A DNA stretch of 44,046 nt from a virus: positions 1-44,046 of IMG/VR virus record IMGVR_UViG_3300025892_000041, one strand, 5' to 3'. The position numbers and the translations under genes were made by a program. Under the pieces are notes generated by a model. The model was not told where the DNA came from and made no database searches. It saw nothing but the letters and a program-made list of their open reading frames with translations. This document shows positions 34,122 to 40,724 of this stretch, one piece after another (within the stretch, counting starts at the first letter, position 1; the number at the start of each line of letters is the position of its first letter).

Positions 34122-34136
34122 TTTATTATAAATATT
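34122..34136 (-). promoter_or_regulatory. Late-promoter-like element upstream of 33788-34093
   Basis: AATATTTATAATAAA on the minus strand, overlapping the last codon of the tape measure gene. Confidence 0.6.
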
Positions 34137-36717
34137 AACCCATTTTAGAAGTTACAAGTGCTAATGATTTTCCAACTTTATTCCCATCCATAAACACATC
34201 ACCACCTTTTCTAACTTCTGATATTAATTCTTTTAGTAAAGCAACAACTTCTCCATTATTACCTCCCCCTAAACTAGTTCCACCAACTATAACATCATCT
34301 TTTCTAAACTTTTGAATTGGTTGACCTGGTCTTGAAATAAAATCTGCTGCCATACCACCTCCTCCAGTTGCTGCTTTATAATCTTTAGCTGCTAAACCTG
34401 CATCTATTGCTACTGATGCAGCTGTTCCTAATCCAGGAATAGTACTAGCTGCTCCTGATGCTAATTCTAATGCAGCTCCTGCAAAATCTCCCTTCATTGC
34501 TCTTTGTATACCAAACCCTACACCCGCTAATAAACCAATAACTGGTATCTTTTTAAGTAGTGATTTACCAACAGCTTTTACTCCTAATTTTGCACCTACT
34601 TTTAATCCTGTTTTACCTGCCATTTTACCCCCTTGCTTTGCTAATTGATCTTTTGCTGCTTTTCCAGCAAATCCTGATGCTATTTGTTTTGTTGAAAATT
34701 TTCCTGATGCTTTTGCTAATGCGTCAGGTTTTTTCTTAAAAAGACTTTTAATACCATCAAAAGTTTTAGACATAGCACCCCCTTTACCAAATACTACATG
34801 CATAGGATTCATCGCTGATCCCATCTTCATTGCTGACATGCCTATTGCTGCTCCTCCAGCTACAAATAAAGATGTAATTGGATTATCTTTTATCATTCCA
34901 AACATCTTTCCTATCATAGGTAAAACACTCATAATTCCATCTACTACTTTACCCATTACACTTGCCATAGTTTTCATCCCAGTTTGAAAAGTTGTACTAT
35001 TAACAAACTTTGAAATAGCATCTGCTACTTTAGTAGCTAAAGGTGCTAATGAATTTTGTAATACTCCTTTGGCTTGTTCTAATGCTCTTTGAGAAGCTTC
35101 AGCTGTTTTTCCTTGTTTAACTGTGTCTGCTAATTCTTTTTCAACAAGAGATGCTATAGCTTCTTTTTGGGTTTTACCTTCCTTCATTAATTGATTTATC
35201 TTTTTTTCAGCTGCTTCTCTTGTAGCTGCATCCATGTCACCAAGTTTATTTTGAAGTAAACGTGTTTGATTCATTTTATGCATTTCCTCAACACTTATAC
35301 CTAAACTATCAGCTAATGCTTTTTGTTGGATTTTATTTCCTTTAGTAGAATCATAATTTGCAGCAAGAATTCTTTCCATTTCTTTAGCTACTGTAACTTC
35401 ATCTCCTCTTAAAGAAGCAGATCTAAGTGCTTCTAAATTAAGATTTTTTCCTAATAATAATTCAGCAGCCATTTCTTTTTCAATAGAAGATTGAAAATCT
35501 AAATTTGCTTCACCCGCAGCTGCAACCTGATCTAATGTCATTCCTAATCTTTTAGCCTGGAATGCTGCTTTTGCTAATGCCTCAGGGTTGGCCCCAATAT
35601 TAGCTATTGATGATGCTGAAGCTGATGAAACTTCTTCCATTACATCATTCATACTTATAGCTGAGTCAGTTGCAAAATTTAATCCTTTTACTATTGTACC
35701 AATTTCTGTAGCTGTGTCACCAAATTCTTTTCCAGATAATGTTGATACCTTAAATAGTCCCTGTGCAGCTTCTTCACTTAAACCTAAAAAATGGGTGAAT
35801 TTTTGATAGTTATTGATTTGTTCTTCAGATAACATTACTGAAGTACCTGCTACTTTATTTAAACCTATTAATGCTGATTTAGCTTCTTCAAAATTAAGAT
35901 ATAAATTACTATCTGCCATATCTGCTAAATTATTCTTCATCATTTTAGCACTAGTATTTGCTCCCATAAATGCTTTTCCTAAATCAGCTGTTTTTTGAGC
36001 GAATTTTTTACCTAATTTTAATAATGCTTGAAAACCTTTTACCATCATAGTAATCATTGCTACAGGATCTGTTATAAATCCTATAAAACTTTTACCTAAT
36101 GATCCTATACCAGCACCTAATACTTTAAATTTACCAGTTAAACCTGATGAATTTTTAGCTACTTCTAAAGCTGCTGAATTTGCATTATCTAAAGCAGTGC
36201 TTATACTTCCTAATCCTAATTTACCTGCTACAGTTTTAAGAGCACCTAAGGCTGCCCCTGTAAGACCCATCTGACTAGTAATTTTAGCAGATAAATCTAA
36301 TTGTTCTTGCAAACCTTTTTCAAATTCATCATTATAACCTTGAACTTTTTTTAATTCATCTTGTAATGATTTTTTTTGCTTTAACTCACCTCGACCCAAC
36401 ATTGAAATTTGGTAGTTTATAGCCTTTATTTTAGATTGTCTTTGTTGAATAAGTTTAGCAGCATCAGCTTGTTTAAAAGCTCCTTCAGCTGCTTTACTAT
36501 TAGCATCTGCTAATTCTTTTGATACCTTAGCTAGAGAATTTAATGATCCTGTAATATCTTTAGCTACTGCTTTAGCTACATTATCAGTTGATGATAGTGC
36601 TTCTTTAAATATATCACCTACCTTATCAGCAATATTTCTTAAAGCATCTTCAACAACTACTGCTGTTTCTTTTGCGCCCTTTTCTGCATCTATTTGGGAT
36701 TTACTCTTTTTGGCCAT
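34135..36717 (-). CDS. Tail tape measure protein
   Basis: This 860-residue protein has a long coiled-coil N-terminal half (V-E-D-A-L-R-N-I-A-D-K-V-G-D-I-F), a central helical part with many Ala/Lys, and hydrophobic Gly/Ala segments in the last third (A-G-G-A-A-I-G-M-S-A-M, V-I-G-L-L-A-G-V-G-F-G-I), all standard for tape measure proteins that set tail length and may help DNA cross the inner membrane. Position after the tail chaperone pair and before baseplate genes is the classical one. A late element precedes it. Confidence 0.88.
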   Translation of the reverse strand: MAKKSKSQIDAEKGAKETAVVVEDALRNIADKVGDIFKEALSSTDNVAKAVAKDITGSLNSLAKVSKELADANSKAAEGAFKQADAAKLIQQRQSKIKAINYQISMLGRGELKQKKSLQDELKKVQGYNDEFEKGLQEQLDLSAKITSQMGLTGAALGALKTVAGKLGLGSISTALDNANSAALEVAKNSSGLTGKFKVLGAGIGSLGKSFIGFITDPVAMITMMVKGFQALLKLGKKFAQKTADLGKAFMGANTSAKMMKNNLADMADSNLYLNFEEAKSALIGLNKVAGTSVMLSEEQINNYQKFTHFLGLSEEAAQGLFKVSTLSGKEFGDTATEIGTIVKGLNFATDSAISMNDVMEEVSSASASSIANIGANPEALAKAAFQAKRLGMTLDQVAAAGEANLDFQSSIEKEMAAELLLGKNLNLEALRSASLRGDEVTVAKEMERILAANYDSTKGNKIQQKALADSLGISVEEMHKMNQTRLLQNKLGDMDAATREAAEKKINQLMKEGKTQKEAIASLVEKELADTVKQGKTAEASQRALEQAKGVLQNSLAPLATKVADAISKFVNSTTFQTGMKTMASVMGKVVDGIMSVLPMIGKMFGMIKDNPITSLFVAGGAAIGMSAMKMGSAMNPMHVVFGKGGAMSKTFDGIKSLFKKKPDALAKASGKFSTKQIASGFAGKAAKDQLAKQGGKMAGKTGLKVGAKLGVKAVGKSLLKKIPVIGLLAGVGFGIQRAMKGDFAGAALELASGAASTIPGLGTAASVAIDAGLAAKDYKAATGGGGMAADFISRPGQPIQKFRKDDVIVGGTSLGGGNNGEVVALLKELISEVRKGGDVFMDGNKVGKSLALVTSKMG

Positions 36718-36748: not shown

Positions 36749-37048
36749 TTATTTTCTTGATGCTTTGGCAACATATGAGGGAGGTGAAACAGTTCTTTTA
36801 GGAGGAAGTTTTGATTTATTAGGATTAGCTAAATCTATGTCATTTTTACTTTTAGGATTATTTGCTTCTGATTGTTCTTTGTAAAATTCTGCTATTTTCT
36901 TAAAAGTAAAATTACGAAGCCACATGGGCATATTATACACAGTATCCCAATCATATCCTCCTTTACCATTAAATACTATATCATGGATTTGAGAAAATAA
37001 ACTACTTCTATAAGTTAGTGCTTCACTAGGCGTCAGGGAAAAAAAAAT
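36749..37048 (-). CDS. Tail assembly chaperone, downstream frame (start-less, expressed by frameshift)
   Basis: The frame is open from 37048 down to TAA at 36749 (99 codons) but lacks an ATG until well inside; the only early candidate is a GTG at 36938-36940, in the middle of what looks like one continuous domain (L-F-S-Q-I-H-D-I-V-F-N-G-K-G-G-Y-D-W-D-T-V-Y-N-M-P-M-W-L-R-N-F). It overlaps the end of the gp26-like gene in the +1 (equivalently -2) frame, with T9 at the overlap. In many phages the gene before the tape measure is read as a fusion through such a shift. The fused product would be about 340 residues. Confidence 0.72.
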   Translation of the reverse strand: MFFSLTPSEALTYRSSLFSQIHDIVFNGKGGYDWDTVYNMPMWLRNFTFKKIAEFYKEQSEANNPKSKNDIDLANPNKSKLPPKRTVSPPSYVAKASRK

Positions 37049-37769
37049 TTAAAGAAATTGGTACATCTATTTCTTCAAGCTCATCATACTCATTAGTAAT
37101 TGTGGCCTTTAATTCTATATCAGGCTGTATTTTTACTATATGATCTCGTAATGCTTTTGCATCTCTAGCTAAAAGATAATTATCAACAAAATCTCTAATA
37201 GTTTTACCTGATGTATCTCCTTCTACTGAAGTGATTAAATATTTCATTCTAGTAGAAATTTCAGGTGATGATGATTTGTTTATTTTTTGAATACCTTTAA
37301 TTTCGGCATCAATTTCTTTATCTAAACCGTCAGTTAATAATCTAAATGTTAATTTAGTTCCTGATGATGGTAGTTCCCAATCAAATTTATTTTCTCCACT
37401 TTTAAATAAACTTTTATCAAGTTCTTTATTTTTCATTAGACTTAAATCTACTATATGTTCTTGACCTTCATATCTAATTTTATAATCTTTACCGTATCCT
37501 AAAATACGTGAAGCAATTAAAATAGCATTTTTATCACCAATTAATATATCTTTAAGTTTTACATCAGTAATAATTAAAGCTTGTAATAATTTATCTAATA
37601 CTATGCCTTTAGCTATATAATTTTGATTAGTTAATATATCTTCTTCTTTAGCAGTCATATATTTCATTTCAATCTTACCAGATTTTAATGGATGACCTTC
37701 AGGATATAATAAACCTTTTGATGGTAATTCTACTTCTTCAGTGGGGAATTTAAATTTTGATTCAGACAT
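37026..37769 (-). CDS. T4 gp26-like tail assembly protein/chaperone
   Basis: This 247-residue protein has V-E-L-P-S-K-G-L-L-Y-P-E-G-H-P-L, I-E-M-K-Y-M-T-A-K-E-E-D-I-L-T-N and L-I-G-D-K-N-A-I-L-I-A-S-R-I-L-G-Y-G, signatures of the T4 gp26 family, called baseplate hub subunit in T4, and it ends in F-F-F-P-D-A. Its place between tail tube and tape measure is where other phages encode the tail assembly chaperone. The last codons include T9 (37039-37047) and overlap a second frame. It may be expressed from the element at 37793-37808. Confidence 0.85.
   Translation of the reverse strand: MSESKFKFPTEEVELPSKGLLYPEGHPLKSGKIEMKYMTAKEEDILTNQNYIAKGIVLDKLLQALIITDVKLKDILIGDKNAILIASRILGYGKDYKIRYEGQEHIVDLSLMKNKELDKSLFKSGENKFDWELPSSGTKLTFRLLTDGLDKEIDAEIKGIQKINKSSSPEISTRMKYLITSVEGDTSGKTIRDFVDNYLLARDAKALRDHIVKIQPDIELKATITNEYDELEEIDVPISLNFFFPDA
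37039..37047 (-). promoter_or_regulatory. Homopolymeric slippery site (T9) for +1/-2 frameshift
   Basis: Nine T residues on the minus strand read TTT-TTT-TTC-CCT in the zero frame. A shift by +1 or -2 on TTT keeps perfect codon pairing and enters the downstream frame (TCC-CTG-ACG). A -1 shift would hit TGA within two codons. Confidence 0.6.
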
Positions 37770-37868: not shown

Positions 37869-38357
37869 TTAGAAATTTAATACACAATAATCCATTCCTA
37901 ATGTTAATGAAATATTCATTACAGTAGTATCATCATCCCAATTCATATCTCCAAATGAAGCATCTTTAATAAATGCACCTTTAATAATCCACTCAGAAAC
38001 CACATCACCTACTGGGCCCAATACATCAATTGTTAAGTCTTTTTTATAGAAATCAGAATAACCATCTCTACCTGTAACTGATTCATGATGTAATCTCGTC
38101 CACTCCATTACGGCTTGTGCTCCTGAAGGTGTAATAGGATCAAATAATTCCATTGTTAAATCATTCCATTTTAATTTACCTTTTACTTTTCTATAGGTGT
38201 TTATATGATTTAATACTATTTCATCCTGCGCGAACCCCATTCCACTAACTCCTTTAATTATATACGATGGTATACCGTCAACATACAGTATAAATCTGTT
38301 AGCTACTTTTGGTTCAAAAGCTGTGAAAAATATTTCGTTTGGGTCTAATACTGCCAT
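37869..38357 (-). CDS. Tail tube protein (T4 gp19-like)
   Basis: This 162-residue protein has V-A-N-R-F-I-L-Y-V-D-G-I-P-S-Y-I-I-K, I-V-L-N-H-I-N-T-Y-R-K-V-K-G-K, W-T-R-L-H-H-E and C-terminal W-D-D-D-T-T-V-M-N-I-S-L-T-L-G-M-D-Y, all typical of the gp19 tube family; length equals that of T4 gp19 (163). It forms the inner tube hexamers. A late element lies in front and a terminator behind, which fits high-level expression of a major structural protein. Confidence 0.95.
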   Translation of the reverse strand: MAVLDPNEIFFTAFEPKVANRFILYVDGIPSYIIKGVSGMGFAQDEIVLNHINTYRKVKGKLKWNDLTMELFDPITPSGAQAVMEWTRLHHESVTGRDGYSDFYKKDLTIDVLGPVGDVVSEWIIKGAFIKDASFGDMNWDDDTTVMNISLTLGMDYCVLNF

Positions 38358-38402: not shown

Positions 38403-40724
38403 TTATGCTGGGAAAGTTGCTCCAGTTGGTAAAATGTTAAAGTCTAGGTAGATAAATTCAGCTGTTTTGGTTGGTTGTAAATAAACAGCACCAATTAATT
38501 CATTTCTATCAATTACATCTGGTGTGTTATTTGAATTATCCATTACAACTTTAAATGCATATAAACCTTGTCTTTGTTGTACTGACTCTAAGTAAGGATT
38601 AACTTGACTTAAGAATGTATTTCTTGTAGCTGCAGTATTTTGTTCAAATACTAATGTATCAGCGATTTGAGAAATATAATTTTTAAGTGTAATTAATAAT
38701 CTTCTTACATTTACTCTATCTAAAGCACTTGCTTTAGTTTGTAATGTTTTTTGTCCAAATACTACTATTCCTTGTCCTGGGAATGAAGCTATTGGATTTA
38801 CTTTTCCAGTATATAAAGTATCTCTATTAGTATTAGTTAATTTTCTTTCTGCTTGATTAACTGCTCCTAATCCACCTCTATTAATACCTGCTGGTGCAAA
38901 CCATGGCTCACCTGCTCTATCATTATAAGCATAAACACCTGGTATCATTGCTGAAGCTGGTACCCAAACTAATTCTCTTGAATCTGGGTCAATTATCTGT
39001 AACCATGGCCAATAAGTTGCAACATATGAAGAATCAACTGAAGCTGCTTGGCTAGTTACTTGTGTTAATGAAGAATTATAATTAACTAAATCTCCTACAA
39101 ATATTGCATCTCCTCTTGTTTCACAATTTGATTGAATTGTTGTCCAACCTGCTCCTGTAGTACTATTTGCTAATATTAAACCTGGGGCTGTAATTATATT
39201 ATATCTAAAATCATCTCTATTAGCTAATAAATTAATAGCTGTAGTGTAATTTGTTCCTACTAAACCTTGAGAATCAGTATTATTAATTTCTTGGTAGAAT
39301 TTTGAAGGTGTTCCACTTCCTGTTATATCTCCTACACCATCTCCAAATGATCCAGATGCTGTAATTGGAATAGAACCTGTAAATTCTGCTTTAGGACTTC
39401 CATTATTATCAAAATAATTAGGAGTCTGCATATTTACAGATTTTACTCTTACATATCTTGAAGCATTTGGAAAAGATCCAGATGATTGTAAATAAACATC
39501 AGTTCCTGTTCCTCTTACTGTTTGTATTTGATCACCAATTACTTTTGAAACATAATTAGGGGATAAAGGATCTAATGATAGGTTTGAAAAAGTTTCAACT
39601 ACTGCTTTAGATGTTTGAGTATCATTACCTTGTCTAATTAATAGTGAAAATACTCCTGATGAAGTACTTGGATTTGTTATTTCCCATCTAAAGTTATCAG
39701 CTGATCCTGAATCTAATGTTCCATTAGCTCCTGTAGGTCCTGCACTATTCATTATATTACCATCTGCTAGTGTTTCTAATACAAAAGCTTCTTCATTTGG
39801 AATATTACTACCTATTAATGTTAATGTTAAATCACCAGTACCATTACCTATATTAGCAGCAGCAAAAGTTAAAACATCTCCTACGTTATATCCAGCTCCA
39901 TCTGCATTAACTTGAACAGCTGTTACTTCTGTAAATAAATCATCAGCAACTAATGTAAATATTGGATCAGTTCCAACTGGAGAAGCTGCTCCTCCTAATG
40001 ATGCTGAAGGAATTGTAATAGTTTCACCGAAAGAAAATCCTGAACCTGTTGTAGTAGCTGTAACATTTGAAATATTTGTTGCTGAGTCTAATTGAACTGA
40101 TAATGTTGCTGTTCCACCTCCACTTCCAATTACATTAACTGAATAAATTCCAATTGCACACTCCGCAGGTTGTGTTGTAATACTAGGTTTTAAAGCATTA
40201 AGAGTTCCTATTAATTTACCACTTGCAGATGATAAAGTAACAAGAGACGATCCTACTGTAGTTGGTACTACTGTTACACCACCTCTAGTAACAGTTGGTG
40301 CAGCCGTATAACCTGCTGCTAATACTGCTCCGTTTTCACCACCAAAATTACTTACTTGAGGAAATAAATTAGTAGAACCACTTATTAAATTTCCTGTTTC
40401 TGTTGCACTTTGTATTAAAGATGAAGTAGCAGCACTAAAAGCTCCTGGAGTTACTCTAGTTACTAATAATGTATTCCCCCCATTCTGGAAATAATTATAA
40501 GCTGAAATAGATGTAAAATATGTATATTGGTTTGATCCACTCATAAAAGTACTACCAAAATTAGCTAAATACTCTGAGTAACTAGTTACTAATTTAGGAA
40601 TATTTTGTTGACCCTTTACAGTTGGCCCAATAATTGCAGCTCCTGCTTGTATAGGACCTGCTGTTATTTGTGATTGGTCGTTTTCTCTTGCTAAAACACC
40701 CGGTGATATTAATACTTCTGCCAT
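38403..40724 (-). CDS. Contractile tail sheath protein (T4 gp18-like)
   Basis: This 773-residue protein starts M-A-E-V-L-I-S-P-G-V-L-A-R-E-N-D, with G-P-I-Q-A-G-A-A-I-I-G-P-T-V-K-G, the standard N-terminus of T4-type sheath proteins. The C-terminal part holds W-P-W-L-Q-I-I-D, Y-N-D-R-A-G-E-P-W-F-A-P-A-G-I-N-R and L-L-I-T-L-K-N-Y-I-S, the conserved sheath core. Residues about 130-300 are Gly/Thr-rich insert domains, probably surface-exposed, and make it longer than T4 gp18 (659). It shows that the phage has a contractile tail. Confidence 0.96.
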   Translation of the reverse strand: MAEVLISPGVLARENDQSQITAGPIQAGAAIIGPTVKGQQNIPKLVTSYSEYLANFGSTFMSGSNQYTYFTSISAYNYFQNGGNTLLVTRVTPGAFSAATSSLIQSATETGNLISGSTNLFPQVSNFGGENGAVLAAGYTAAPTVTRGGVTVVPTTVGSSLVTLSSASGKLIGTLNALKPSITTQPAECAIGIYSVNVIGSGGGTATLSVQLDSATNISNVTATTTGSGFSFGETITIPSASLGGAASPVGTDPIFTLVADDLFTEVTAVQVNADGAGYNVGDVLTFAAANIGNGTGDLTLTLIGSNIPNEEAFVLETLADGNIMNSAGPTGANGTLDSGSADNFRWEITNPSTSSGVFSLLIRQGNDTQTSKAVVETFSNLSLDPLSPNYVSKVIGDQIQTVRGTGTDVYLQSSGSFPNASRYVRVKSVNMQTPNYFDNNGSPKAEFTGSIPITASGSFGDGVGDITGSGTPSKFYQEINNTDSQGLVGTNYTTAINLLANRDDFRYNIITAPGLILANSTTGAGWTTIQSNCETRGDAIFVGDLVNYNSSLTQVTSQAASVDSSYVATYWPWLQIIDPDSRELVWVPASAMIPGVYAYNDRAGEPWFAPAGINRGGLGAVNQAERKLTNTNRDTLYTGKVNPIASFPGQGIVVFGQKTLQTKASALDRVNVRRLLITLKNYISQIADTLVFEQNTAATRNTFLSQVNPYLESVQQRQGLYAFKVVMDNSNNTPDVIDRNELIGAVYLQPTKTAEFIYLDFNILPTGATFPA

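Follow-up and report, generated by a model that had tools for sequence, protein, structure and literature searches.

A 2016 review describes the G/GT frameshift of tail chaperone genes as a conserved trait of long-tailed phages "except T4", and assigns a -2 shift to phage Mu and very likely a +1 shift to the haloarchaeal phage HSTV-2 (PMC5009743). The hub assembly chaperones listed for T4 include gp26 and gp51, the latter being required and absent from the particle (PMC3004832). The gp51 proteins of cyanophages and vibriophages were reported without the first ~200 residues and gp51 was reported missing in Aeh1 (Sullivan et al. 2010, PMC3037559).

The window analysed here is the whole 44,046-nucleotide stretch of IMG/VR virus record IMGVR_UViG_3300025892_000041. 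It carries a gp26-like gene overlapped by a second frame with coding content. Judging from the sequence comparisons below, the best explanation overall is programmed entry of ribosomes into the +1 frame, yielding a tail chaperone with a C-terminal extension, to which we assign a probability of roughly 0.87.

The gp26-like locus and the family of its two parts

Gene order in the window is sheath, tube, chaperone and tape measure, with the following features:

38403-40724, minus strand: tail sheath gene
37869-38357, minus strand: tail tube (gp19-like) gene, directly upstream of the gp26-like gene
37769-37026, minus strand: gp26-like gene in frame 0 (open 37769-37029, TAG 37028-37026), predicted short form of 247 aa
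37051-37049, minus strand: TAA that closes the +1 frame directly upstream of its open stretch, read in the window
37047-37039, minus strand: run of nine T (T9) in the frame overlap, containing the putative shift site and conserved in part only
37046-37040, minus strand: putative shift site TTT TTT T (consensus TTT YTT T), placed by conservation and the pairing table
37039-36749, minus strand: coding region in the +1 frame, SLTPSEALTYRSSLF...ASRK (stop 36751-36749), predicted C-terminal extension of the long form
37035-37033, minus strand: TGA that closes the -1 frame, read in the window
34135-36717, minus strand: tape measure protein gene, directly downstream of the gp26-like gene

The second frame lies in the +1 (equally -2) phase relative to the gp26-like gene and is open from 37048, just past the TAA, to 36749 on the minus strand. 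This TAA leaves it without ATG, GTG or TTG ahead of the conserved domain, and the first such codon is a GTG at 36940, within the conserved block. Fusion of both frames would give a long form of ~339 aa with a C-terminal domain of ~95 residues. An earlier note on this DNA had given coordinates for the gp26-like TAG and the start-less frame (37048-36749), and had pointed to nine T in their overlap; all of its coordinates were correct on re-examination. It had also stated that a -1 shift is closed at once by TGA, and the TGA at 37035-37033 is indeed present; a -1 slip would therefore yield nearly the same short protein.

Flavobacterium phage immuto has an annotated tape measure protein to which that of the window, the expected client of the chaperones, is homologous (E=3e-15). 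Residues 642-788 of the window protein match PHROGs labelled endolysin/peptidase, possibly only from the peptidase domains of tape measure proteins in those families. Elsewhere in the window, a tRNA-Gln (UUG) gene at 942-1015 is the sole tRNA found.

The frame-0 protein matches phrog_150, "baseplate hub" (E=1.2e-8), and the fused window protein matches positions 7-264 of the 282 of this profile (E=1.4e-9). T4 gp26 covers positions 14-235 and T4 gp51 positions 13-280, so gp51 consists of a gp26-like domain and a C-terminal piece, and BLASTP also aligns the two proteins with each other (E=2e-6 for this pair). This sequence evidence makes gp26 and gp51 of T4 paralogues that correspond to the predicted short and long forms. 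The cyanophage "gp51" (57 aa in S-PM2) matches the C-terminal piece of gp51 only (phrog_634, E=2e-27; phrog_150 positions 240-281, E=2e-6). When fused, the proteins of S-PM2, P19, VH7D and ACP17 cover nearly the whole phrog_150 profile, and these four and the fused window protein run colinearly into its C-terminal part.

Profile comparisons with hhalign connected the second domain of the window to that of the relatives in the -1 phase (the -1 clade; E=7e-6), to this clade plus the C-terminus of gp51 (E=1.5e-5) and to distant +1 domains (E=1e-8). The latter matched the -1/gp51 set (E=4e-7), and the -1-clade domain matched the C-terminus of T4 gp51 (E=7e-5). All 40 column-shuffled control profiles stayed below 5% probability, and the direct profile comparison of the window domain with the T4 gp51 C-terminus alone was not significant (E=0.19). 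By this chain of intermediate families, the second frame is identified as the C-terminal domain of T4 gp51. The earlier note had guessed that a frameshift may lie behind the separately annotated gp26/gp51 pair of relatives; given this domain and the paralogy of gp26 and gp51, the guess was right in kind.

The AlphaFold model of the gp26-like protein has a pLDDT of 89. Its best PDB matches are YqbN (Z 5.8), one of the XkdN-like tail chaperones, and, at Z 4.6, the HK97 tail assembly chaperone, followed by an uncharacterised PICI protein (Z 3.8) and unrelated chains at about 2.3. All these values lie below 8 and are modest, so that the fold match is support and not proof. Searches of Pfam and of PDB sequences gave no matches, and Foldseek of the second-domain model (confidence 73) against viral models returned nothing significant. 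The gp26-like protein is thus a putative tail chaperone.

Conservation of the junction and mode of decoding

Viral contigs searched with the gp26-like protein as query yielded 215 usable loci, and dropping loci with more than 85% nucleotide identity left 111 non-redundant junctions. All 215 of 215 loci have their second domain in the +1 phase. At the junction, TTT-YTT-T is present in all of the 111 but one (TTT-CTA-T in L043), within a frame-0 pattern TTT YTT T(GG/TC/AC) CC that is followed in most by T GAC. CCTGAC is almost invariant in close relatives but not in the deeper L346-L349. Phe codons at the two site positions are TTT in 213 of 213 cases, while TTC makes up 17% of the Phe codons upstream (167/960), which puts the all-TTT site at log10 P = -25. 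Third codon positions carry 2.0 bits in the site against 0.0-0.7 bit upstream, and this jump indicates that the second frame comes under constraint exactly at the site. From these sequences, the overlap in the +1 phase is more than chance.

The T9 run itself varies, with seven T followed by GG in most relatives and TTTCTTTGG, TTTCTATGG or TTCTTTTGG in some. The earlier note had placed the shift on T9; relatives keep the frame relation and not the homopolymer, and the conserved part is TTT-YTT-T, for which T9 is unneeded.

The sequences themselves show the phase, the conservation of the site, the absence of starts, the family of both parts and the distribution of single versus paired genes. We infer from these comparisons that shifting occurs, that it involves a minority of ribosomes, and that it is +1 rather than -2. 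Most ribosomes would stay in frame 0 and stop at 37026, giving the short form, as with T4 gp26 and lambda gpG. The others would slip +1 with peptidyl-tRNA-Phe on UUU_Y, re-pairing from UUU to UUY, and would read ..N-F-F-S-L-T-P.. into the ~95-residue extra domain of a long form comparable to T4 gp51 and lambda gpGT. By analogy with lambda, the probable task of the two forms is to coat the tape measure protein jointly, and that of the extra domain to recruit subunits of the tube or hub.

The direction of the slip was considered with a pairing table whose lineages include Bacillus SP-15, Listeria LIS04, Streptococcus GXN1, Rhodothermus RM378, one uncultured jumbo phage and the L318-L332 group. 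In every lineage, the junction has a UUU codon whose next base is U or C, and a +1 move of tRNA-Phe there keeps pairing. A -2 ribosomal shift at the same place, with ..NFFFSLTP.. and one extra Phe at the junction, is unlikely. In its favour, phage Mu employs this mode (PMC5009743), and in the window and the majority of relatives pairing survives if the second codon slips by -2. Nearly all close relatives also have TTT as their first codon, which would be dispensable if only the second codon slipped by +1. Against it, GXN1 (TTC TTT CGT) and the L318-L332 group (TTC TTT TGG) have their second domain in the +1 phase, yet a -2 move would mispair there at the middle base, which favours the +1 slip of tRNA-Phe from UUU to UUY. 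Of the earlier statement that +1 or -2 slippage keeps full pairing, the +1 half thus fits all lineages and the -2 half fails in these two.

Nothing was seen that would account for the slip, be it a slow stop codon, a rare codon or a conserved RNA structure on the 3' side. Alignments were devoid of a conserved downstream stem or pseudoknot (z +0.3 to +0.5 in near relatives, 0.2 in the wide set, 0.4 in cyanophages), and single-sequence folding downstream revealed no structure (mean z -0.4 to -0.8). A precedent for a +1 slip on a Phe codon is PA-X of influenza A. It is likewise without visible stimulators (PMC5009743). A hairpin UUGAAGAAAU...AUUUCUUUAA is predicted at 37078-37049 (minus strand), ending two bases upstream of the shift site. 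It has an alignment z of -2.3 in the closest relatives, is not conserved elsewhere, and could limit backward slipping or be due to chance in AT-rich sequence.

Expression of the second frame as a separate small protein, comparable to the cyanophage "gp51" and begun at a non-AUG codon or by coupled re-initiation, is improbable. Between the upstream stop of the +1 frame and 20 codons past the junction, some ATG, GTG or TTG is present, by chance or design, in 76 of the 111 window-type loci, and an ATG lies one codon past the stop in 45 of 80 cyanophage-type loci. On the other side, the same stretch holds none of the three codons in 35 of 111, the window included, and no ATG in 80 of 111. A nearby CTG, considered as a start of the second frame, was ruled out by its variants, CTA or CAG in 4 of 111 and CTT or CTC in deeper lineages. 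Moreover, constraint begins at the slippery codons and not at a start codon, U_UUU_UUC is kept in 80 of 80 cyanophage-type loci whether the ATG is present or not, and T4 gp51 is an in-frame fusion.

The case closest to a separate protein is that of L329 and L333, where the second domain is an ATG-started ORF in another phase just past the frame-0 stop, with an added N-terminus of ~25 residues (MxNIDxxLxE...GRQFLG). Their junctions, TTC TTG TAT and TTC CTT TGG, are without a UUU_Y codon. A start was thus gained where the site was lost, in two cases that are probably related to one another. A clear ATG start, which the earlier note had weighed against a frameshift, exists in these two relatives and goes with a lost site; it supports the frameshift claim rather than refuting it, and it indicates that fusion is not mandatory in every relative.

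Slippage of RNA polymerase on T9, with mRNAs of 8 or 11 U read normally, is likewise improbable. Bacterial polymerases can slip on a run as long as nine T, and the closest relatives share this run. Relatives in the same phase with TTTCTTTGG, TTTCTATGG or TTCTTTTGG have no run above 3-4 T, so it is not the conserved mechanism; within the T9 group it may make a minor contribution. A homopolymer sequencing error or a decayed gene, conceivable since T9 in a metagenomic contig is error-prone, was ruled out by the relatives: as the earlier note had wished to see established, T9 is identical in other assemblies, those of close relatives (L003, L004, L005 and L084), the +1 phase is kept in 215 relatives including the isolates immuto and Mel-JY01, and both frames are conserved at the protein level.

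Relatives in the -1 phase and the T4 lineage

The proposed shift into the +1 frame in the window clade has a counterpart in other T4-like phages, where slipping by -1 at U_UUU_UUC would give the same two forms. S-PM2, P-HM1, ACP17, VH7D, P19, OLIVR6 and Atu_ph07 have this heptamer and their second domain in the -1 frame. The sites of pf16 and RHph_I1_9 are close variants, and those of K474 and Kevin, also in the -1 phase, are less clear; IME-SM1 stands outside these assignments. Frame 0 ends as ..TTT TTC NNN (NNN) stop in the first seven of these phages and as GAT TTT TTC NNN stop in KVP40, Aeh1 and Cronobacter S13, and both NNT TTT TTC and the -1 phase were found in 80 of 80 cyanophage-type environmental loci. 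The earlier note had called the -1 shift usual for tail chaperones of long-tailed phages and a +1 or -2 event in a T4-like phage unusual.

In Aeh1 (L353), a -1-frame domain without annotation follows U_UUU_UUC at 1789-1950, and in KVP40 (L354) the one at 1849-2016 is annotated as gp51; both records could be re-annotated as joined CDS. The uncultured jumbo phage L141 (LR756511) has a -1 second domain and U_UUU_UUC at the end of its gp26-like ORF, and the jumbo phage L138 (LR756508) is in the +1 phase, so that jumbo phages differ among themselves in the direction of the shift.

When whole genomes were searched with the profile in six frames, T4 alone had a pair of phrog_150 genes, and the other ten complete phages had one each. 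Profile positions 226-281, missing from the single gene of S-PM2 and P-HM1, lie in another frame that overlaps the gp26 stop. According to the record of KVP40, the likeness of its gp51 to T4 gp51 is confined to the 40 C-terminal residues of the latter. A -1 frameshift probably explains this C-terminal-only likeness, the "missing" gp51 of Aeh1 and the "truncated" gp51 of vibriophages and cyanophages, including the 80% truncated appearance of the latter. In a Slopekvirus (L356, 1501-2795), a long gp51-like and a short gp26-like phrog_150 paralogue are adjacent with a 4-base overlap, which fits the expectation after tandem duplication; the gp26 and gp51 genes of T4 are arranged divergently, unlike this pair.

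In the T4 lineage, the two forms would have turned into separate genes, 26 and 51, and the sequence distribution suggests that T4 is a derived exception inside a frameshifting family. We lean towards a reading in which a single orthologous tail-chaperone family has been decoded in three ways and has switched among them: by a -1 shift at U_UUU_UUC, by a +1 shift at UUU_Y, and by duplication in the T4 lineage. The +1 shift at UUU_Y, with no stop codon, rare codon or RNA structure to stimulate it, would be a class of phage shift site undescribed as far as we searched. If this reading is true, the G/GT arrangement is ancestral to T4-like phages, duplication made frameshifting dispensable in the T4 lineage, and gp51 is a fossil of the frameshift product. 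T4 gp26 and gp51 would also gain a concrete role, suggested to be that of short and long tape-measure chaperones. No paper on frameshifting or paralogy of gp26/gp51 was found in a search confined mostly to literature outside subscription journals, which does not establish priority. Many phage records annotate the gp26-like/gp51 protein wrongly or not at all.

Comparison with known systems

Like lambda gpG/gpGT, the window has a small gene with the tube gene on one side and the tape measure gene on the other, a start-less overlapping frame, a conserved slippery site and predicted short and extended forms. Lambda shifts -1 at a canonical heptamer, whereas the window clade would go into the +1 frame at UUU_Y, and its putative chaperone belongs to another sequence family with a larger first domain (~250 aa). 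The canonical -1 arrangement, X_XXY_YYZ with a second frame at -1, is thus not that of the window, whose second frame is +1.

Other tail or virion genes that reach the +1 frame are those of Mu (-2), HSTV-2 (+1) and Listeria phage PSA, tsh and cps (+1) (PMC5009743). PSA shifts at CCC, before a stop in tsh and with a pseudoknot in cps, whereas the window would use Phe UUU and no such stimulator was seen. A PSA-like slippery proline codon (CCC/CCU) was rejected for the window: moving from CCU to CUG breaks pairing, and the codon is variable.

In the +1 shift of prfB (RF2) at CUU_U, a P-site YUU slips onto UUU, as proposed here, and immuto-type relatives have CUU_U. The two differ in that the window is without a stop codon in the A site, and in that prfB serves autoregulation while the shift in the window is proposed to give constitutive dual products. 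With a conserved +1 site on Phe codons and no visible stimulator, the window clade offers a clean model for forward slippage.

The homologous system is T4 gp26/gp51 (phrog_150, phrog_634), with frame 0 corresponding to gp26 and the extension, via intermediate families, to the C-terminus of gp51. T4 has two paralogous genes and no frameshift, whereas in the window one gene would give both forms.
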